From the NCBI GenBank assembly GCA_023435545.1, contig JAEYRQ010000256.1:1-11131 (forward strand): DNA of 11,131 nucleotides, written 5' to 3'. Made by a program: the position numbers and the translations under genes. This document shows, piece by piece, positions 306 through 10,392 of the stretch (position 1 is the first letter of the stretch; each line of letters starts with the position of its first letter). This DNA comes from Pseudomonadota bacterium. GTDB taxonomy: Bacteria; Pseudomonadota; Alphaproteobacteria; Rhizobiales; Tepidamorphaceae. Under the pieces are notes generated by a model. That model was not told where the DNA came from, made no database searches, and worked only from the letters and a program-made list of their open reading frames with translations.

Positions 306-668
306 ATGGCTGAAGCCTGGCCGAACATCGAGCACCGCGCCCGCGCCCGCTCGTTCCGCACCCTTGCGCCCGGCGCGCCGCGGCTGTCGACCGAGATGGA
401 CGACAGCTCGGCCTGGCACCGCCCCTCGACCACGCTCCGACTTGCCCGCATCGCCTTCCAGATCCGCATGTCCAATGCCGACTTCGATGTGTTCAAGGTC
501 TGGGAGGACCGCACGCTTGTGCAGGGGACGCTGCCCTTCGTCATGCCGGTGTGGACCGGCTCGTCCTACCAGAGCCGGACCTGCACCTTCGTCGATCGCT
601 ACAACGACGATGCCGGGACCGGGCGCTATCACGTCGTCACCCTCACCCTCGACGTCGAGGACTGGTGA
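306..668 (+). CDS. Phage minor tail protein, gpM-like position (120 aa)
   Basis: This gene encodes 120 residues from an ATG at 306, preceded by a clear GGAGG (293-297) with 8 nt spacing. It starts 14 bp after the tape-measure stop. The protein has no membrane segment. Its C-terminal half looks beta-rich (FQIRMSNADFDVFKVWEDR, then LVQGTLPFVMPVWTGSSYQ) and ends in alternating hydrophobics (VVTLTLDVEDW). This resembles small tail-tip proteins such as lambda gpM, where a segment that avoids leaving gaps between inserted coordinates is followed by a final beta strand. Its place directly after the tape measure and before the DUF1833 gene fits gpM. The assignment is by position and general look, not a recognised signature. 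It would act in assembling the tail-tip complex in the cytoplasm. Stop TGA at 666-668; the next gene starts 3 bp later, so translation is likely coupled. Confidence 0.65.
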   Translation: MAEAWPNIEHRARARSFRTLAPGAPRLSTEMDDSSAWHRPSTTLRLARIAFQIRMSNADFDVFKVWEDRTLVQGTLPFVMPVWTGSSYQSRTCTFVDRYNDDAGTGRYHVVTLTLDVEDW

Positions 669-671
669 GCG

Positions 672-1244
672 ATGCCGGTCGAGATGGACGAGGCGCTGGA
701 GGAGGCCTATGCGTCGGCGCCGGCCGACGAGTTCGTGCTCTGCACGCTGGAGATCCAGCATCCGGCCTTCGTCGATCCGGACGGCAACGCCGATTCGCTG
801 CGCGCGGTGACGAACGACAAGCGGGCCTGGGACCTGAAGATCGAGGCGGACGCGCCGATGTTCGCGGGCGAGACCAAGACCTTCGAGCCGTGCGCGGTGG
901 AAGTGATCGGGCCGGAGCAGGACGAGGCCTCGCTCGGCCAGATGCGGCTGAAGATCGACAACGTGCCGCAGCGCTACATGCGCCACCTGACGGCCGCCGC
1001 GACCATGTCGTCGCCGATCCGGGTGATCTATCGCGAGTACCTGCTGAACCACGATCCGGAGACGGGGGAGTGGACCGTCGCGAGCACGGACGGGCCTGCC
1101 TACAGGATCGGCGGCCTGACCATGAAGGCGGTCGACGCGACCATGCTGGTGCTGGAGGGCGTCGCCGGCTTCGTCGATGCGCTGGGCCAGTCGGCGCCGA
1201 CCGAGGTCTTTTCGCGCGAAGACTATCCGGGGATCTGGCAGTGA
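672..1244 (+). CDS. DUF1833-type tail-tip protein, gpL-like position (190 aa)
   Basis: The 190-residue protein starts at ATG 672, 3 bp after the previous stop; a GAGG at 657-660 lies 11 nt upstream. The N-terminal part (FVLCTLEIQHPAF, then LRAVTND) and the body built of beta strands with AVEVIGP and RLKIDNVPQ match my memory of the DUF1833 family in tail modules of phages of Gram-negative bacteria. The family has no defined chemistry, and by gene order it stands where lambda has gpL, a tail-tip ring protein. Lambda gpL carries a C-terminal Fe-S cluster bound by cysteines. Here only two cysteines are seen (near residues 24 and 74) and none in the C-terminal part, so an Fe-S cluster is unlikely. 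The last codons overlap the next gene by 4 bp (GTGA), as expected for coupled translation. Confidence 0.8.
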   Translation: MPVEMDEALEEAYASAPADEFVLCTLEIQHPAFVDPDGNADSLRAVTNDKRAWDLKIEADAPMFAGETKTFEPCAVEVIGPEQDEASLGQMRLKIDNVPQRYMRHLTAAATMSSPIRVIYREYLLNHDPETGEWTVASTDGPAYRIGGLTMKAVDATMLVLEGVAGFVDALGQSAPTEVFSREDYPGIWQ

Positions 1245-1687: not shown

Positions 1688-4600
1688 ATGTGCCAGGCCG
1701 TCATCGTCGACCGCATCTATGAGGATGCGGAGCGGATCCTGCCGCTCGACCCGGGCCTGACCGTGCACGAGGTCGTCGCCCGCCTCGCCGACGCGCATCC
1801 CGACCTGTTCACCGCGCAGGATCCGGAGAAGCCGCTGCCGGCGTTCCCTGCCGGCGTGCGCTTCCGGCTGCCGATCGTCGCGGTCGGCACCGACCCGGAC
1901 GGCAATCCCGACTACATCCTTCAGCGCACCTGGCATACCCGGACGCTTGCCGAAGGCGAGACCATCGCTTTCGTGGTGGTGCCGCGCGGCGGTGGCGGCG
2001 GCTCGAACGCGGGCAAGCAGATCGCCGGCGTGGTGGCGATGATCGCGCTCACCATCGCCGCGCCCTATCTCGCGGTCGGGCTGGGCGGCGCGGCTTTCGG
2101 CACGATCTCCGGCGGCATGGCGAGCCTGACGCTGGCCGGGCGGCTTGCGACGATGGGCATCATCGCCGGCGGCGCGGCGCTGATGAACGCGCTGCAGCCG
2201 AAGGCCGATGGCCCGGCCGTCCAGGAGCAGAAGGTCTATTCGGCGGCCGCGGCGAACAACTCGCTCCAGCCCGGCGCCATCGTGCCGGTGCCCTACGGCC
2301 TGAACCGCTACGCCCCGCCCTTTTCGACCCGCGCCTACGTCGAATACGAGAACAACGAACAGTTCCTCTACCAGGTGCTCTGCCCCGGCAAGGGGCATCA
2401 CGCGATCAAGCGGGTGCTCTACGGCGACACCACGGTGTGGACCGCCGAGGACGGCTACACCGACGCGATCGAAGGGCTGGAGCTCGAATTCTGCGAGCCG
2501 GGCGAAGGCGTCACGCTGTTCCCCGCCGGGGTGGTGCTCGCCTCCGAGGTGAACGGCCAGGAGATCCCGAACCCGAACCAGTGGCCGCCGCACGGGGCAT
2601 TCGATCCGGTCTGGCTCGGGGGGTTCGTGGTCAACGCCGCGGGCGAAGCCAACCGCATCGATCGGATCGCGATCGACTTCTACATGCCCGAAGGCATCTA
2701 CGCGCAAGGGTCCGGAGGCATCTCCGCCTTCGGCGCCGACCTGATGGCGCAGTACCGCGAGATCGACGACAGCGGCGACCCGGTCGGAAGCTGGACGACC
2801 TTCGTCGGCGACGGCACCGGGGAGAATGGCGGCAAGCGCTACTGGGGCGCCACGAAAGAGCCGCAGCGCTACACCGAGAAGGTGGACGTTCCCAAGGGCC
2901 GCTACGAGGTCCGGGTCGCCGCCACCTATCCCTTCCAGCCGGCCGACAGCGATGCGAAGAACCGCACCCTCTGGGGCGGCCTGAAAGGATATCTCGCCGA
3001 CTTCACCACGCCGCCCGGCGTCACCCAGATCGCGGTGAAGATCCAGGCCGGGCACGATCTGAGCGAACTCTCCGCCAACCAGTTCTTCGTGGAATCGGTG
3101 CGGAAGCTCCCGGTCTGGGACCCTGACGAGGAGACCTGGTCGGAGCCGGTAGAGACGCAGTCGATCGCCTGGGCGGTGGCCGACTGGCTGATGAACACCG
3201 ACTATGGCGGCGGCATCGCCGAAGGCGATATCGATCTGAACTGGCTCGCCGCCTATGCGACCTTCTGGGACGAGCGCGGCGACACGTTCAACGGCATCTT
3301 CGACCGCGAGTGGATGCTGCTCGACGGGGCCAACGCCATCCTGCGCTGCGGCCGGTCGCAGGTGGTCAGGATCGGCGACCGGATCGGCTTCACCCGCTAC
3401 GAGGCGAAGGACGTCAAGCGGGCGGTGTTCACGCCGCGCTCCATCGTCAAGGGATCGTTCAAGCGGCGCTGGATCTTCTCCGACGACACCCTTCCCGATT
3501 CCAAATACTGCAAGTTCCTCGACGCCGAGACCTGGCAATACGACGAGATCAAGGTTGCCGCGCCCGGCTATTCCTCCTCGAGGCCGGTCGAGGAGACGAT
3601 GTTCGGCTTCGTCGACCGCGAGCATGTCTGGCGCGAGGGCGTCACCGACTGCGCGATCAATGCCTACCGGGATCGCGAGTTCGCGTCCTTCACCACCGAG
3701 TGGGACGGCAAGCGGCTGGTGCGCGGCGATCCGGTGCTCGCCGTCCATCCGCTGATGGCCAATGCGTTCGCGCGGATCGACGGGGTGGACAGCACCGTCA
3801 TCACGCTCGATCGGGACATCGCCCAGGCGTTGACCCAGCAATGGGTGGATGACGCCGCCGACTGGACCAACTCCAATGCCGGCGCGCCGGGATCGGTGGC
3901 GGACCTTCCCGGCTCCTTCGTCGAGGACGGGAGCTTCGGCCGGCTGGTGGCGGTCCGCTCCGGCACGTCGACCAACCCGATCCGATCGAAGCGGACGATA
4001 CCGGCGCCGCTCGATGACACGATCATCGAATTGCAGGTGCGGTGGCGGATCGTCGGCGAGGGCGAGGGCCGGATCGTCGCGCGTTGCGTCTCGCTGGATG
4101 GCGACTATGCGCAGCTCTCGGTGGTCGGCGATGCGACGGACCTGGTGTCCGGCGGCGGCCAGCGCCTGACCCGGTTCTATTTTGCCAATCCGGCGACCGC
4201 GTCCGGCATCGGCGGGGTGACGGCCTGGCATGCGGCTGCGAAAGAGCTTCGGTTCGGCGTCAACGTCAACGCCGGCGAGGGCGGCGCCGAGGTGCGCATC
4301 GCCCAGATCCGCCCCCGCGCCGTCCATGGCCTTCAGGATCGGATCTACATCCGGGGCAAGCGCGGCCGCGAATGGGGCTTCTGCGACGTCGCCTCGATCC
4401 CCGACGACCGGACGATCGTGCTGGACGAAACCCACCTCGCCGAGGTCGAGACGGCCGACGGCTCGATCGCCTCGATCCTGCCGGGACCGCGGGCGGAGAA
4501 GGCGCATCTGGCGCTGTTCCAGGACGATGCCAGGCCCTTCGACGGGCTGGTGATCTCGATGCGCCCGACCGGCCCGAACCGTGTCGACGTGCTGCTGGTG

Positions 4601-7600
4601 CGCGACGATCCGAGGCCCTACGAGGCCGACGAGACCGGCTCGGCGCCGCCCTACCTGCCGCCCCGCAAGCCCCCGACGCCGCCTGACCGGCCGATCGTCA
4701 CCGGCCTGTCGGCGCGTCTGGAAAACGGCGACTTCGACGTGCAGCTCGTTGGCGGGTGGCTGCCGGCGCCTGGTGCCCGCGCCTATGTCGCCAAGGTCTC
4801 CTATGACGAGGGGGACACATGGGAGCACGTCTATCGGGGCCGGAACCCGAGCTTTACCGCGCCGACGTTGAGGCAAGCGCAGCGGGTCGCGGTGCGCGCG
4901 ATCGGCAAGCTGCCGGGGCCGTGGGTCTACGCCGACATCGCCGAGCTGGCTGTGCCGCCCGTCAAGCCGCCCCGCAACAAGACACCGCCGGGACCGCCGA
5001 CCGATCTGGCCGTCGATACCGGGTTCACGATTGCTGCTGTCGACTGGGTCAACCCGGCCGATGACGATCTGGCGCACGTCGCCGTGCTGGTGCACACGTC
5101 TGACGATGTAGAGGCCGCGACCGTTGCCGGATCAATCATCGCGCCGGGCGATAGCCTCGTCGTCGCGGATCTTGCCGAAGACACCGATTACTGGTTCTGG
5201 GCCTATGCGGTCGACCTTGACGGCAACCCATCGACCATAACTGGCCCTGTCACCGACAAGACGAAGAAGTCTGTCTTTGGCCCCCCGAATACAGACCCGC
5301 CGGGAGAGCCCACCGCCCCTCAGCTGACGCCGGGGTTCAACCTGGTCCTGCTTGAATGGACCAACCCCGCCGACGACGACCTCGCCGATATCGAGGTGTG
5401 GGTCAACTCGGCGGACAACCTCGGCGCGGCCGTGCTGACCACGACGGCGCGTGCGCCGGGCGCCTCGGCTGTGGTCGGCGAGCTGCCGAACGATGCCGAG
5501 CGGTGGTTCTGGCTGCGCGCGGTCGACTATTGGGGGAACAAGTCCGAGTTCGTCGCCTGCGGCTCGGCGACGACGCTCGACTCCCCCTTCGGCGATCGGA
5601 ACAGCGACCCGCCCGGCGAGCCGACCTCGCCCTCGCTTTCGCCCGGCTTCCATCTGGTCGGGATCGGATGGACCAACCCGGCTGACGACGACCTCGCCGA
5701 CATAGAGGTGTGGGCGCACACCGCGAACAGCCTGGGCTCGGCCGTACAGATCGGCAGCGCCCGCGCGCCGGGGGAAAGCTTCGTCGCGGCGGGGCTCGGC
5801 AACAACGCCACCTGGTGGTTCTGGATCAGGGCGGTCGATTACTGGGGCAACAAGTCGGACTTCGTCGCCTGCGGCTCGGCGACCACCTTCGCCGGCACGG
5901 CCGATATCGCGAACAACGCGATCGACTCGAACATGATCCAGAACCTCGCGGTTCTGACGGCGAAGCTCGCCAACAATGCGGTCAACGTCAACAAGATCGC
6001 CAATGGGGCCGTCGAAGCGGGGAAGATCGCAGCCGCAGCAGTAGGTACGACGCACCTCGATGCGCTGGCCGTAACAGCCGCCAAGATCGCAGCAAGTGCG
6101 ATCGAGACGGCCAAACTTGCAGACGGCGCGGTTGCAACGGCAAAAATTGCCAGTGAGGCGGTGGATTCCAGTCGGATTGCTGATCTGGCAGTATTGGAGG
6201 CGAAGCTGGCGGCCAACGCCGTCACCGTCAACAAGATCGCAACGAATGCGGTCACATCTACGAAGATTACTGACGGGGCGATCTCTACGCCGAAGCTGAC
6301 CGCAAATGCTGTCACGGCGAATGAGATCGCGGCCGGGGCGGTCATTACCACGAAGCTAGCTGCCGGTGCCGTCACTGCGAATGAGATCGCCGCAGGCGCG
6401 GTCGTTACCGACAAGCTGGCCGCGCACGCAGTGACGGCCAGTAAGATGGTGCTGACCGACACCACTAACCTGATCCTGAACGGGGCTTTTGAAGCACCGG
6501 ACGGGACCGCATCGAGTGATGGGTGGTCGCAAACAGGTACGATGTTTATCGGGTCTTTGGCCTTCACGGGTGGACCTAGGTTATTCGGCGCCGCGTTCAA
6601 CGGCACGGGGGTAAACAACCTCGTGACATGGGATGCTTACATCCCTGTCGCTGAGGCGGAATCGTTCGCGTCCAGATTGGACATTTACCGGCATGGGGCC
6701 GCTAATGGTTCCTTCCTGTTGCAAGTGATCTGGTACGACGAAAATAAGTCGGTTGTATCAGGCCCCACGCCGATCTTTTTAACTGACGGGACAAAGTCTA
6801 ATGGCTGGTCGAGCCACACCGGGACCATCGTCACCGTGCCGGCCGGCGTACATTTCATGCGGTGGCGCTGTGGGACTCAGGCCACCCATACGAATCAGTG
6901 GTGGGCCGCTACCAACTTCATCGTTAGGAAGGCGGCGAATGCCGAGCTGATCGTAGACGGGGCGGTGCTGGCCGAGAAAATCGCGGCCGGGGCGGTTGTT
7001 GCTGGCAAGATTGCAGCGGGTGCTGTCACTGCTACTGAGATTGCGGCTGGAACGATTACGTCGGCCAAGATTGCAGCCGGGGCTATTACCACCACCGAGT
7101 TAGCGGCCAATTCGGTCACGGCGGCGAAGATCGTGGCGGCGACAATTACGGCCGCTGAGATCGCCACAGGCGCCATCACCACCGCCAAGATCGCGGCAGG
7201 CGCCATCACTACCACCGAATTGGCCGCCGGAGCGGTTGTCGCAGACAAGATCGCCGCCAATTCGATTTCGGCCTCCAAGCTGATCCTGACCGATTTGAAC
7301 AACCTGATCCTAAACGGGTCTTTCGAGGGCGCGGACGGGTCTTTGCTTAGTGACGGCTGGACCACTACTAACGGTGCGACAATCGGCGCTCTAACCGGTG
7401 GGTTTGCCGGTCATCGATCGTTTGGGATACGGTTCTCCCAGAGCGGCGGCGGGGTCAATAACGTCGCCACCTGGAACACATTCATCCCGGTCTCCGAGGG
7501 TGAATCATTTGCTCCTAGAATTGATGCCTTCCGTGGTAATGGAAACGGCACACTGAATTTGTGGGTCGTTTGGTATAACGCCGACAAGTCTGCCACGGTG

Positions 7601-8836
7601 GGTGCCAACTTTCCGCACCATGTCACGACTGCACATCCCAATTGGACATGGGCGTCATACGCGGGAAGTATTGTTACTGCACCTACCGGGGCGCACTTCA
7701 TGTCATGGAGATGCTACACCAGCCCGGCACACACCGCTGATTGGTGGGGCGCAACCAACTTCATCGTTAGGAAGGCGGCGAATGCTGAATTGATCGTCGA
7801 CGGAGCAATAATCGCCACCAAGATTGCAGCGGGGGCGGTCACTACCGCCAAGCTGGCCGCCGGGGCCGTCACGGCCGGAACGATCGCCGCCGGGGCAGTG
7901 ACGGCTGCAAAGATCTACTCTGGCGAGGTGCAGGCCGACCGTATCCAGGCCGGAAACATTGCCACAAACGCAATTCAAGCAGTCCACATCCTAGCCGGTG
8001 CGGTAATTGCCGGGAAGATCGGCGCGAATGCGGTCACGGCGAACGAAATCGCGGCCGGCACCATCACCTCGAACAAGCTCTATGCGGGCGAGGTGCAAGC
8101 GAGCCGCATTCAGGCGCTCAATATTGCCACGAATGCGATTGAGGCTCAGCACATTGCGGCGGGAGCCATTATCGCGGGGAAGATCGCCGCTGGCGCAATC
8201 ACCGCCGCGAACATGATTGTAAATGGTGTCATCACCTCAAACAAACTCTACGCAGGCGCAGTTCAGGCCAGCCGGATACAAGCAGACAACATTGCAACAA
8301 ACGCGATTACAGCCACCAAGCTCGCGGCCGGGGCGATCGTCGCTGGGAAGATCTCAGCTGGGGCGATCGACGCGGCGGAGCTGTTCGTCAACGGCGTGAT
8401 CATCACCGATCTGATCGAGGCGAATGCCGTTCAGGCCCCGCGCTACACAAACCCGTCCAACGTCAACTGGGTCGGGAGGACCACCGGCCAGCAGGTGGTG
8501 GTCGCGGAAGTAACCCTTCCAGTTACCACTGGCACGACATTTGTCGAGGGCCAGTTCACCTGCCAGACCGTCGCGGCAATCGCCACTGGCGGTGGAAACG
8601 TCACCTCGCAAGTTCAGCTGCGGATCAATGGTGTGACCATCTACTCCGAGCCGGGGGCGTCCCAGTCCGGAGAAGGATCCACCACGCTCACCAATCGCGG
8701 CTTCGGCTTCTCGAATCCCGGTGCTGGCGACCGGACGGTGCAGCTGGTCGTTATCTTCACATGGACCGGCAACCTCAACTTCGCGGCCACACAGGTCAAC
8801 CAGATCCGCCTGAAAGCGACGGCGCCGAAGCGATGA
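1688..8836 (+). CDS. Giant central tail-tip / host-specificity protein (J-like, gpI-J fusion, 2382 aa)
   Basis: Start ATG 1688 follows the peptidase stop by 6 bp, with a GAGAG at 1672-1676. Residues 1-100 resemble the small ubiquitin-like head of lambda gpI and end VVVPRGGGGGS. Residues 110-172 are a glycine-rich hydrophobic stretch, followed by LQPGAIVPVPYG, again as in gpI. Residues about 190-1080 form the J core, with a Phage-tail_3-like part near 530-710 and an apparent inserted domain at about 719-881. FN3 units occupy 1098-1201, 1202-1305 and 1306-1408. Next come a decapeptide stalk (1409-1588), a binding-like domain (1589-1756), a second stalk (1757-1866), a second binding-like domain (1867-2037), a third stalk (2038-2251) and a C-terminal beta-rich domain (2253-2382). 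J proteins form a trimer at the tail tip that binds the receptor and passes the tape measure and DNA through the envelope. Lambda J is about 1130 aa; the extra length here is the repeat and binding region. The exact receptor cannot be read from the sequence. Confidence 0.92.
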   Translation: MCQAVIVDRIYEDAERILPLDPGLTVHEVVARLADAHPDLFTAQDPEKPLPAFPAGVRFRLPIVAVGTDPDGNPDYILQRTWHTRTLAEGETIAFVVVPRGGGGGSNAGKQIAGVVAMIALTIAAPYLAVGLGGAAFGTISGGMASLTLAGRLATMGIIAGGAALMNALQPKADGPAVQEQKVYSAAAANNSLQPGAIVPVPYGLNRYAPPFSTRAYVEYENNEQFLYQVLCPGKGHHAIKRVLYGDTTVWTAEDGYTDAIEGLELEFCEPGEGVTLFPAGVVLASEVNGQEIPNPNQWPPHGAFDPVWLGGFVVNAAGEANRIDRIAIDFYMPEGIYAQGSGGISAFGADLMAQYREIDDSGDPVGSWTTFVGDGTGENGGKRYWGATKEPQRYTEKVDVPKGRYEVRVAATYPFQPADSDAKNRTLWGGLKGYLADFTTPPGVTQIAVKIQAGHDLSELSANQFFVESVRKLPVWDPDEETWSEPVETQSIAWAVADWLMNTDYGGGIAEGDIDLNWLAAYATFWDERGDTFNGIFDREWMLLDGANAILRCGRSQVVRIGDRIGFTRYEAKDVKRAVFTPRSIVKGSFKRRWIFSDDTLPDSKYCKFLDAETWQYDEIKVAAPGYSSSRPVEETMFGFVDREHVWREGVTDCAINAYRDREFASFTTEWDGKRLVRGDPVLAVHPLMANAFARIDGVDSTVITLDRDIAQALTQQWVDDAADWTNSNAGAPGSVADLPGSFVEDGSFGRLVAVRSGTSTNPIRSKRTIPAPLDDTIIELQVRWRIVGEGEGRIVARCVSLDGDYAQLSVVGDATDLVSGGGQRLTRFYFANPATASGIGGVTAWHAAAKELRFGVNVNAGEGGAEVRIAQIRPRAVHGLQDRIYIRGKRGREWGFCDVASIPDDRTIVLDETHLAEVETADGSIASILPGPRAEKAHLALFQDDARPFDGLVISMRPTGPNRVDVLLVRDDPRPYEADETGSAPPYLPPRKPPTPPDRPIVTGLSARLENGDFDVQLVGGWLPAPGARAYVAKVSYDEGDTWEHVYRGRNPSFTAPTLRQAQRVAVRAIGKLPGPWVYADIAELAVPPVKPPRNKTPPGPPTDLAVDTGFTIAAVDWVNPADDDLAHVAVLVHTSDDVEAATVAGSIIAPGDSLVVADLAEDTDYWFWAYAVDLDGNPSTITGPVTDKTKKSVFGPPNTDPPGEPTAPQLTPGFNLVLLEWTNPADDDLADIEVWVNSADNLGAAVLTTTARAPGASAVVGELPNDAERWFWLRAVDYWGNKSEFVACGSATTLDSPFGDRNSDPPGEPTSPSLSPGFHLVGIGWTNPADDDLADIEVWAHTANSLGSAVQIGSARAPGESFVAAGLGNNATWWFWIRAVDYWGNKSDFVACGSATTFAGTADIANNAIDSNMIQNLAVLTAKLANNAVNVNKIANGAVEAGKIAAAAVGTTHLDALAVTAAKIAASAIETAKLADGAVATAKIASEAVDSSRIADLAVLEAKLAANAVTVNKIATNAVTSTKITDGAISTPKLTANAVTANEIAAGAVITTKLAAGAVTANEIAAGAVVTDKLAAHAVTASKMVLTDTTNLILNGAFEAPDGTASSDGWSQTGTMFIGSLAFTGGPRLFGAAFNGTGVNNLVTWDAYIPVAEAESFASRLDIYRHGAANGSFLLQVIWYDENKSVVSGPTPIFLTDGTKSNGWSSHTGTIVTVPAGVHFMRWRCGTQATHTNQWWAATNFIVRKAANAELIVDGAVLAEKIAAGAVVAGKIAAGAVTATEIAAGTITSAKIAAGAITTTELAANSVTAAKIVAATITAAEIATGAITTAKIAAGAITTTELAAGAVVADKIAANSISASKLILTDLNNLILNGSFEGADGSLLSDGWTTTNGATIGALTGGFAGHRSFGIRFSQSGGGVNNVATWNTFIPVSEGESFAPRIDAFRGNGNGTLNLWVVWYNADKSATVGANFPHHVTTAHPNWTWASYAGSIVTAPTGAHFMSWRCYTSPAHTADWWGATNFIVRKAANAELIVDGAIIATKIAAGAVTTAKLAAGAVTAGTIAAGAVTAAKIYSGEVQADRIQAGNIATNAIQAVHILAGAVIAGKIGANAVTANEIAAGTITSNKLYAGEVQASRIQALNIATNAIEAQHIAAGAIIAGKIAAGAITAANMIVNGVITSNKLYAGAVQASRIQADNIATNAITATKLAAGAIVAGKISAGAIDAAELFVNGVIITDLIEANAVQAPRYTNPSNVNWVGRTTGQQVVVAEVTLPVTTGTTFVEGQFTCQTVAAIATGGGNVTSQVQLRINGVTIYSEPGASQSGEGSTTLTNRGFGFSNPGAGDRTVQLVVIFTWTGNLNFAATQVNQIRLKATAPKR
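4979..5911 (+). repeat. Three tandem fibronectin type III units in the tail-tip protein
   Basis: Three units of 104 codons lie head to tail with no linker change. The motif aaccc in the NPADDDLA segment falls at 5051, 5363 and 5675, exactly 312 bp apart. Units begin PPGPP or PPGEP, continue W(V/T)NPADDDLA, and end in a W(F)WxxAVD strand. Units 2 and 3 are nearly the same at the DNA level (for example DYWGNKS followed by FVACGSATT), while unit 1 has diverged more. This points to an old first unit and a more recent copy event. FN3 domains are common in tail-tip proteins and act as spacers or weak sugar binders. The third unit runs straight into the decapeptide stalk at 5912. Confidence 0.85.
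5912..6451 (+). repeat. Decapeptide stalk 1: 18 in-phase 10-residue repeats
   Basis: Residues 1409-1588 divide without gaps into 18 ten-residue units of the form xxAVxxxKIA, such as NNAVNVNKIA, AGAVTANEIA and AGAVVTDKLA. Position 4 is Val or Ile, position 9 is Ile, Leu or Met, and position 3 is Ala or, rarely, Ile. At the DNA level the 30-bp units differ by many synonymous changes, so the pattern is kept for protein structure rather than being a fresh expansion. Similar repeats occur in phage tail fibres and J-like proteins, where a trimeric beta-rich shaft is plausible; the fold is inferred. Confidence 0.85.
6452..6955 (+). other. Carbohydrate-binding-like domain, copy 1 (inside J-like protein)
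   Basis: Residues 1589-1756 form a compact domain between two stalks. It opens with NLILNGAFE and DGW, the typical beginning of CBM4/9-like jelly-roll domains, and ends with HFMRWRC, NQWWAATNF and IVRKAANAELIVDGA. Such domains bind polysaccharide, so it is a good candidate for recognising capsule, O-antigen or another cell-surface sugar. The base composition drops here: hand counts of 60-bp lines give 55% GC at 6541 and 48% at 6721, against 78% at 1741 and 73% at 3901. TTA leucine codons also appear. The assignment to CBM4/9 is from the opening motif only. Confidence 0.65.
6911..6942 (+). repeat. 32-bp exact direct repeat, left copy, at the end of binding domain 1
   Basis: The 32 bases from accaacttca to gcgaatgc are the same as those at 7754-7785. 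The copies are 843 bp apart, which is exactly 281 codons, so recombination between them would keep the reading frame and would remove or add one stalk-plus-domain unit. The same protein segment (TNFIVRKAAN) is encoded by both. Flanking codons differ by synonymous changes, so the identity is local and notable. Confidence 0.9.
6956..7285 (+). repeat. Decapeptide stalk 2: 11 in-phase 10-residue repeats
   Basis: Residues 1757-1866 divide without gaps into 11 decads from DGAVLAEKIA to ANSISASKLI. The hydrophobic positions match stalk 1, with more Thr in the variable positions (AGAITTTELA occurs twice). It joins the two binding-like domains and would put them about one short shaft apart along the fibre, if the shaft fold is as inferred. 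Confidence 0.85.
7286..7798 (+). other. Carbohydrate-binding-like domain, copy 2 (inside J-like protein)
   Basis: Residues 1867-2037 are a diverged copy of the domain at 6452-6955. Both share NLILNG, DGW, a VNN..TW...IPV segment, E.ESFA.R, HFM.WRC, WW.ATNF and the closing IVRKAANAELIVDGA. Copy 2 is 3 residues longer. The middle, where a binding surface would lie, has changed most, while the ends are almost fixed. The 60-bp line at 7501 is only 42% GC by hand count, the lowest seen in the window, so this domain is the clearest foreign-looking DNA here. Confidence 0.65.
7754..7785 (+). repeat. 32-bp exact direct repeat, right copy, at the end of binding domain 2
   Basis: This is the partner of the copy at 6911-6942, in the same codon phase. 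The sequence differs at once on either side: the preceding codon is gca here and gct there, and the next base is t here and c there. It marks the seam between binding domain 2 and stalk 3. Confidence 0.9.
7799..8440 (+). repeat. Stalk 3 with a 55/56-residue superrepeat
   Basis: Residues 2038-2251 begin with four ordinary decads and then switch to a longer repeat. The unit runs K(I/L)Y(S/A)G(E/A)VQA.RIQA.NIATNAI, then about 30 residues ending before the next K(I/L)Y. The tyrosines fall at residues 2077, 2132 and 2188, so the three units are 55 and 56 residues apart (165 and 168 bp). Inside each unit the 10-residue rhythm is mostly kept with small shifts. The last unit ends in GVIITDLIEANAV and leads into the C-terminal domain. 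Confidence 0.8.
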
Positions 8837-9206: not shown

Positions 9207-9380
9207 ATGCCTGCCAACTACGACGTGACCGAGGACGGCGTCACCCAGCGCCTCAACAACATCGACGCGATCCAGCCGCAGAATGGCTACTGGGTGTTCA
9301 TGCGCGGCGATCTTCCGGTCCGCGCGCTCGAGCAGAGGTCCGGGAATTCGTTCGCCGTTGTCGACGAGGATCCCGAGTGA
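9207..9380 (+). CDS. Very small late-operon protein, function unknown (57 aa)
   Basis: A 57-residue protein runs from ATG 9207 to TGA 9378-9380. It has a strong Shine-Dalgarno site (9192-9199), starts 41 bp after the previous stop and overlaps the next ATG by 1 base (TGATG). The sequence begins MPANYDVTEDGVTQRL and contains NGYWVFMRGDLPVRALEQR, then an acidic end (VVDEDPE). It is soluble, without cysteine or a membrane segment. The codons have high G/C third positions. I do not recognise a family. The tight packing in the operon makes it a real gene with fair confidence. Confidence 0.7.
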   Translation: MPANYDVTEDGVTQRLNNIDAIQPQNGYWVFMRGDLPVRALEQRSGNSFAVVDEDPE

Positions 9381-9676
9381 TGGGAAGGGGCATGCAGGAC
9401 CGCTCGGAGCCGCTGGGCGCCAGCCGGGTCGATACGCGTTCGATGAGCCTCGGCGAGGCCGTCGGGCGCGTCGTCAAGGGAGCGGACGACCGGGAGGTCA
9501 GCCTCTGGTGCGGCGACACGCTCCGATCCGTGAGCGGGACCATAGACGCGGGAATGATCGCCGCGGAGTCCATTGAAGCGGGGCGGCTGGTGCTCGATGA
9601 GCCCATCGTCTCGGCTGATCCGACCGAAGCGTCCGCCATCCATTCCCCGGCCTCCGGCGTCAGTCGATCCGCCTGA
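9380..9676 (+). CDS. Small late-operon protein, function unknown (98 aa)
   Basis: The chosen start is ATG 9380, which shares its A with the previous TGA; a GTG at 9377 and an internal ATG at 9392 are other options. The product of 98 residues begins MGRGMQDRSEP. Its middle part (LGEAVGRVVKGADDREVSLW, then IDAGMIAAESIEAGRL) suggests an alpha/beta fold, and its C-terminal 20 residues are Ser/Pro/Ala-rich. Third positions are strongly G/C, which fits coding. No catalytic or membrane pattern is seen and I do not know the family. The end overlaps the minus-strand gene by 17 bp, so the two genes converge. Confidence 0.6.
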   Translation: MGRGMQDRSEPLGASRVDTRSMSLGEAVGRVVKGADDREVSLWCGDTLRSVSGTIDAGMIAAESIEAGRLVLDEPIVSADPTEASAIHSPASGVSRSA

Positions 9677-9903: not shown

Positions 9904-10392
9904 ATGCGTATCGCTGTTCTGACGGCCGCCCTCGTGGCGGCTTTTCTTTTGGCCGTCCCGGCCAACGCAAGCCCGCTGGCCGGCGATCCGTCCTTGCCGA
10001 GTGTCATCGTCGCGGGAAAGACGGAACGGCCGCTCACGGGCCGAGCTGACACCCTGTCGATCGCCCGGCGCTACATGGGGACAAACCCGACGCATCGCCG
10101 AACTCTGTGGTGCCAGTCGTTCGTCAACCTGGTCGAGCGCAAGGCCGGCCGGAAAGGGACGGGGTCAGACCTCGCAAGGTCGGCGCTCGGCTACGGCCGC
10201 CCTGTCCGTCTCACCGACGCGCGTCCCGGCGACATCGTCGTGCTGTCGCGCCGGGGTGGAGGCCATTCCGGTTTCCTGGTCTCGCGCTCGGGCGGGACGG
10301 TCCGCCTGATCTCCGGCAATGCCTGCAATCCCCGTCGCGTTTGCGAGAGCTCATACCCGGAGAGCCGCATCCTCGGCATCCGCCGGCCCTGA
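9904..10392 (+). CDS. Secreted NlpC/P60- or CHAP-like cysteine peptidase (TIGR02594-like, 162 aa)
   Basis: ATG 9904 gives 162 residues that begin with a clear signal peptide: MRIAVLTAALVAAFLLAVPANA, with likely cleavage after ANA at residue 22. The mature part has LWCQSFVN with Cys at 70, GTGSDLARS, ARPGDIVVL, GGGHSGF with His at 121, and ends with SYPESRILGIRRP. This order (WC..FVN, PGDIVV, GH.GF, SYP.SR.LG.RRP) is what I know from the TIGR02594 family of small peptidoglycan amidase/peptidase-like proteins in phages of alphaproteobacteria. It would act in the periplasm on peptide cross-links and fits beside a lysin. A GAGAGG at 9884-9889 is 14 nt away, so the ribosome site is weak. The signal peptide means it can reach the wall without a holin. 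A role in tail entry instead of lysis is possible. Confidence 0.82.
   Translation: MRIAVLTAALVAAFLLAVPANASPLAGDPSLPSVIVAGKTERPLTGRADTLSIARRYMGTNPTHRRTLWCQSFVNLVERKAGRKGTGSDLARSALGYGRPVRLTDARPGDIVVLSRRGGGHSGFLVSRSGGTVRLISGNACNPRRVCESSYPESRILGIRRP

Follow-up and report, generated by a model that had tools for sequence, protein, structure and literature searches.

The 11,131-nt stretch of contig JAEYRQ010000256.1 (assembly GCA_023435545.1, a Tepidamorphaceae alphaproteobacterium; hereafter the window) carries a 2382-aa open reading frame (ORF) that is, judged by its sequence, a central tail fibre of the lambda J/TipJ type, and two related domains of ~170 aa, termed heads 1 and 2 herein, lie within this single frame among the decapeptide repeats of its distal shaft (Table 1). 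A preliminary description of the window had pointed to the two domains as low-GC, carbohydrate-binding-like cassettes that might have been exchanged from another source. We consider it likely that they are instead paralogous jelly-roll heads of the carbohydrate-binding type protruding from the shaft of the fibre, and that the low GC content belongs to the whole distal stretch of the gene.

The two heads and their predicted fold

The two domains proved to be diverged copies, as had been described, with 55% amino acid identity in one alignment and 53% over 176 columns in another; the same residue was found at 92 of 168 aligned codons. In both heads the ends are fixed, with LTDxxNLILNG near the start and ATNFIVRKAANAELIVD at the end, and the middles are changed. 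At identical degenerate residues the two heads use the same codon in 36 of 84 cases (12 of 18 within the last 24 columns, 24 of 66 elsewhere). At the 3' end, 10 consecutive degenerate codons are the same in both heads (permutation p = 0.0045), which at the DNA level appears as the 32-base exact repeat of Table 1.

The AlphaFold2 model of head 1 is a jelly roll (pLDDT, the predicted local distance difference test, 83.3), namely the beta-sandwich fold of CBM4/9/16/22-type carbohydrate-binding modules (CBMs), and the carbohydrate-binding-like character attributed to the domains was thereby upheld for head 1 at the level of a predicted model. Its top structural match (Foldseek/VIA) was a domain of the central fibre of mycobacteriophage Douge, tied with CBM16 modules and a tailspike; the match to this N-terminal domain (NTD)-like type extended over the domain in both sequence profile and fold. 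Head 1 also matched the minor tail protein family phrog_346 (E 7.9e-4). Neither window head matched Pfam CBM_4_9 (PF02018) up to E 1, and 3 of 20 members of the head family did so at E up to 0.01. For head 2, a weak match to Pfam Rick_17kDa_Anti (17.1 bits, cut-off 24.2) was put down to chance. The top-neighbour domain of the Douge fibre (PDB 8ZDO/8ZDP/8ZDQ) is reported to bind surface glycans, and six different surface domains of Douge gave similar glycan profiles; two heads therefore need not mean two specificities.

The heads are probably sugar-binding knobs. In the mechanism that we propose, the fibre is presumably a trimer with the heads sticking out of its shaft; the heads would probably make the first contact with host surface glycans, and the last contact may fall to the C-terminal domain. 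The fixed ends could be explained if each head has to branch off from the decapeptide shaft and return to it in register, and the middle would be freer to vary if it carries the surface loops of the fold.

The fibre matched phrog_31, 'central tail fiber J' (E 5.9e-73 across aa 76-712), and tblastn of the fibre gave proteins of Achromobacter and Burkholderia phages that are annotated as tail fibre or J; the Pfam J-domain models FNIII-A_GpJ (17 bits, cut-off 27) and Ig_J_second (17.8 bits, cut-off 27) did not reach their gathering scores. Because the Pfam matches of the repeats behind the core to J-type Ig/FN3 and DUF models all fell below their cut-offs, the FN3 label in Table 1 is tentative. 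FN3-like repeats 2 and 3 (nt 5290-5887) are near copies of each other, sharing 220 of 290 aligned bases, and a related fibre, P0021, seems to carry one such repeat fewer than the window fibre; a duplication is therefore likely.

Table 1. Features of the window, with the parts of the fibre gene in order
Feature	Position (nt)	Strand	Basis or remark
Virion-protein ORF	306-668		phrog_384
DUF1833 minor tail gene	672-1244		upstream of fibre gene
NlpC/P60 gene	1241-1681		just upstream of fibre gene
Central tail fibre gene, lambda-J/TipJ-like, 2382 aa (predicted)	1688..8836	+	ORF, phrog_31, tblastn
Conserved J core, aa 1-1095, GC3 0.90	1688..4972	+	identity to P0122, P0021, P0123
Three FN3-like repeats, aa 1096-1400	4973..5887	+	sequence comparison; Pfam J-type Ig/FN3 and DUF matches below cut-offs
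Shaft 1, decapeptide repeats, 18 units	5888..6448	+	17/17 spacings = 10; tail fibre PHROGs
Head 1, jelly-roll CBM-like domain, aa 1588-1757	6449..6958	+	AlphaFold2, Foldseek/VIA, phrog_346
32-base exact repeat, copy 1, fixed C-terminal end of head 1	6911..6942	+	
Shaft 2, decapeptide repeats, 10 units	6959..7282	+	9/9 spacings = 10
Head 2, putatively same domain as head 1, aa 1866-2038	7283..7801	+	53-55% identity to head 1
32-base exact repeat, copy 2, end of head 2	7754..7785	+	
Shaft 3, decapeptide repeats, less regular	7802..8437	+	10/15 spacings = 10
C-terminal domain, presumed fibre tip	8438..8836	+	position; no relative by phmmer
GH108 endolysin	10460 on		downstream of fibre gene

The head family

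The heads were placed among relatives in a set of 125 sequences, which comprised the window protein, 119 among the 120 matches listed (7224 in all; the identical P0002 was dropped), P0122-P0125 from a further search, and the fibre protein of Rhizobium phage RHph_X3_2 (L001); the head profile was built from first-round matches within this same set. The profile search found at least one head in 94 of the 125 proteins and at least two in 89; two related knobs along a repetitive shaft are a common layout. The information content of 236 near-full heads (86 proteins) was 2.0 bits per column over the first ten columns and 2.4 over the last ten, against 0.3-1.2 for the ten-column blocks between, showing that fixed ends with changed middles are a trait of the whole family. 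The window fibre thus has the hallmarks of a multi-head shaft fibre, with conserved first and last 10 head columns and a decapeptide shaft, the period of which was measured in the window only. The nearest neighbour of a head lay in another protein in 190 of the 236 cases, a count that includes a contribution from orthologs in related phages, and in the same protein in 46. The C-terminal domain had no relative by phmmer among the 125 sequences, and its model (pLDDT 57.5) was too poor for use.

Close relatives of the window heads themselves were few. A protein search with head 1, able to find only full-length proteins that are similar in size and have 5-residue words in common, gave two matches among 1033 word-sharing candidates, namely the window itself and P0021. 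When each head was searched by tblastn against 50,697 phage records, one record was found for each, from the same Rhizobium phage (29.2 and 28.8%), and scans of genome contigs (with head 1 and P0123) and of viral contigs (with head 1 and P0122) gave no confirmed relative. In alignment A4, heads other than head 2 and that of P0021 were 20-33% identical to head 1, with 27% for that of L001. A viral-contig scan with the Rhizobium lusitanum fibre P0012, on the other hand, yielded 11 loci, 10 of them with long fibres (L002-L011). The eleventh, L012, has no fibre ORF of at least 800 aa and was left out of the comparisons of GC at third codon positions (GC3) and of codon identity below; L002-L011 together with L001 are the 11 loci of the GC3 comparison.

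GC composition of the fibre gene

The 60-base lines 7501-7560 (41.7% GC) and 6721-6780 (48.3%) are the two lowest of the window, and the 42% and 48% counted previously were exact. The 70-78% given for upstream parts of the gene held for the upper end only, as 40-codon windows before the step described below range over ~0.57-0.76, and the heads have ~53-62% GC in 300-base windows. GC3 was 0.90 in the core, 0.73 in FN3-1 and 0.91 in FN3-2/3 (four-fold GC 0.92), followed by 0.72, 0.69 and 0.71 in shafts 1-3, 0.69 in head 1, 0.62 in head 2 and 0.78 in the C-terminus. Likelihood segmentation of GC3 placed one step at aa 1438/1439 (nt 6002), from 0.89 to 0.69 (delta lnL, the gain in log-likelihood, 71); no other step exceeded the penalty, and hence there was none at the head borders. 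This single step sits ~450 bases before head 1, and the low GC3 continues through the shaft, the heads and the C-terminus. At four-fold sites, the shafts differed strongly from the core (p = 3e-21), both heads together differed slightly from the shafts (p = 0.036), head 1 equalled the shafts (p = 0.60), and head 2 was modestly lower (p = 0.005).

The low GC is therefore not specific to the two domains, contrary to the earlier proposal, and GC as a mark of cassettes was rejected, as the only change-point lies upstream of the heads. Since low GC is common to shaft, heads and C-terminus, it would reflect the history or codon use of this whole stretch rather than import of heads. Among the 11 related fibre loci, most of which are related to each other, the heads (GC3 0.66-0.76) lay below the core (0.73-0.80) in 10, the exception being L005, and by less than in the window. 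A low-GC head within an equally low-GC stretch is thus no evidence of a foreign head, which corrects a tempting error.

Close relatives and exchange in related fibres

Three proteins informed the history of the window fibre. P0021, the core of which is 84% identical, has the same FN3-shaft layout and one head, 56% identical to head 1 and 58% to head 2. P0122 has a core 92% identical but is unrelated beyond ~aa 1091, with no trace of the distal part of the window fibre, which implies that blocks can be exchanged. At nt 4955-4990, the near-identity to P0122 ends within a proline-rich linker. P0123 (TipJ of Microbaculum marinum) is 53-55% identical to the window fibre in the core, and its distal part is 26% identical to that of P0122 over 760 columns; P0122 bears PF09327, which we take to be DUF1983, and P0123 is without this label. 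The grouping of P0001 with P0122 in the core tree was weakly supported (57.6/65), so that either one or two tip exchanges fit.

In the FastTree of the 236 heads, head 1, head 2 and the head of P0021 formed an exclusive clade (local support 1.0) with long, near-equal pairwise distances of 0.83-0.88. Among the sampled heads, separate recent import of each head is thus not supported. A history shared with the flanking gene, named at the outset as the finding that would speak against exchange, was accordingly seen in part, in the clade with the head of P0021, and the distal part of P0122 is unrelated.

The long fibres L002-L011 were compared pairwise (45 pairs, with L001 and L012 left out), and six pairs, picked after viewing, were inspected closely; tracts could be placed in five of the six, with gaps counted as mismatches. 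L006 and L008 (core 0.96) differed in a tract over most of head 4, with an identity of 0.65 within it and 0.95 beyond it; the tract recurred in the comparison with L009 (0.61 inside, 0.93 outside). L005 differed from L006 and L009 in the region of head 3 (0.43 inside, 0.92-0.95 outside), and in the place of that head, between its two recognised heads, L005 has a segment unrecognised by the head profile. In L002 and L003 (core 0.95), identity was 0.58 in head 3 as compared with 0.86. These amount to three events of single-head replacement, two of them measured twice, and the tract edges fall in fixed head ends or shaft repeats, although the pairs were picked after inspection and without a null. 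L006 and L008 were also unlike or gapped at ~aa 760-1160, where L006 has a head and L008 none. Replacement was seen on a larger scale as well. The core of L009, which is on a cut contig, is closer to that of L007 (0.92 identity) than to that of L006 (0.74), whereas the last three heads and the C-terminus of L009 have 0.88-0.95 identity to L006, and its heads 0.56-0.71 to L007. This pattern hints at an exchange of blocks among the fibres of this group. L005 and L006 likewise have most of the distal part in common, with cores 0.61 identical.

Single heads in these fibres thus look replaced between near-identical neighbouring parts. The cassette exchange proposed previously gains from such absence or replacement of single heads in relatives and loses low GC as its mark; it fits the head family and is unproven in the window. 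The relatives suggest two types of seam, fixed head ends and shaft repeats, which is testable at scale. We tentatively propose that head ends and in-register decapeptide repeats might serve as built-in recombination seams, by which heads would be gained, lost or replaced singly with the fibre left intact, the two heads of the window being one state of this process.

Origin and function of the heads

That both heads are cassettes recently imported from a lower-GC source, giving two receptor specificities, appears quite improbable. The two lowest 60-base lines do fall in the heads, head 2 lies below the shafts at four-fold sites, and single heads look replaced in relatives between fibres with near-identical neighbouring parts. 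However, no change-point accompanies the head borders, head 1 cannot be told from the shafts, the window heads and that of P0021 are exclusive neighbours at long distances among the 236, and no donor was visible, as the search among word-sharing proteins of similar size with head 1 gave only the window and P0021. A larger import is compatible with paralogous heads on the shaft and is possible, if rather doubtful: the block of FN3-like repeats, shaft, heads and C-terminus could have come by exchange from a phage of lower GC, with its border at the proline-rich linker near aa 1095 or further along the fibre. The abrupt end of the similarity to P0122, the extent of the low-GC stretch from nt 6002 to the gene end, and the core-distal incongruence of L009 and L005/L006 are in agreement with such an event, whereas the GC step at aa 1438 is not at the linker and FN3-2/3 are still GC-rich, the P0001-P0122 split is weak so that a single tip change is enough on the alternative tree, and P0021, with its less similar core, has the same distal layout. 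Also compatible with our preferred reading, and with a somewhat better prospect, is a tandem duplication within the fibre lineage followed by divergence and possibly by conversion at the 3' end. It is supported by the exclusive clade with the head of P0021 and by the 10-codon run; yet the heads are no closer to each other (53%) than to the head of P0021, and hence any duplication could not be much younger than that split. Codon identity at the C-terminal end was 0.52 within genes, against 0.37 in the middle, but was also raised between genes (0.46 against 0.38; 35 heads, 12 genes for both), indicating that the run may reflect constraint. Conversion between the heads, suggestive in the window, is weakened to that extent.

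Two further explanations concern what the heads do and how their middles came to differ. Structural knobs bracing the shaft without sugar binding would be consistent with the occurrence of the jelly roll in proteins not known as lectins and with the lack of a Pfam CBM match for the window heads, but seem unlikely, given that glycan binding has been measured for the top VIA neighbour, itself a domain of a phage fibre, and that the middles vary far more than the ends. A diversity-generating retroelement, which the fixed ends and variable interior might call to mind, is scarcely credible: the differences between the heads cover all substitution types, with third-position C/T the commonest, and are not adenine-specific, and no reverse transcriptase was present among the scanned ORFs (10 in one scan, 9 in another) of the 11-kb window, in which no template search was made.

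Gene neighbourhood

The gene content of the window reads as that of a phage or prophage, from the tail tip to lysis. The neighbourhood expected of lambda J/TipJ is present, with the DUF1833 and NlpC/P60 genes upstream and the GH108 endolysin downstream. Upstream of the endolysin, the ORF at 9904-10389 may encode a CHAP-type hydrolase (Pfam CHAP E 3e-4, 21.7 bits, below the cut-off of 26; phrog_1259 E 4.4e-12). A small ORF at 9380-9676, soon 3' of the fibre gene, holds in its translation a shaft-like stretch, IDAGMIAAESIEAGRL, and is possibly a fibre remnant or a small fibre-related protein.

Comparison with known systems

The host-specificity proteins gpJ/TipJ of lambda have in common with the window the J core profile and the NlpC/P60 gene just upstream, but the window fibre differs in having, between core and C-terminus, a long shaft of decapeptide repeats into which heads are inserted. 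CBMs also occur as extra adhesion modules on tail-tip proteins in the evolved Dit/Tal of lactococcal and streptococcal phages, where they are reported to sit within loops, either of Dit or of the N-terminal domain of Tal (PMC7291167), and not, as here, in a distal shaft. The jelly-roll fold of Pfam CBM_4_9, CBM16 and CBM22 is also that predicted for head 1, though without a Pfam match for the window heads. No published description of this head and shaft layout was found among titles and abstract beginnings, which is a weak negative.

The domains of this kind in Douge central fibre gp20, of which the N-terminal domain is one, are reported to flank the stem and tip of an 878-aa fibre in a different phage group, whereas the putatively glycan-binding heads of the window are set apart by decapeptide repeats within a fibre of 2382 aa. 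Modular receptor-binding proteins are well known, and a narrower question is where long J fibres have their seams. The multi-head J-like fibres of the viral contigs found with P0012 of Rhizobium lusitanum (L002-L011) and of Rhizobium phage RHph_X3_2 share the same head profile, with 2-5 heads per fibre in 11 loci, and differ from the window fibre in that the core-to-head GC3 gap is larger in the latter.
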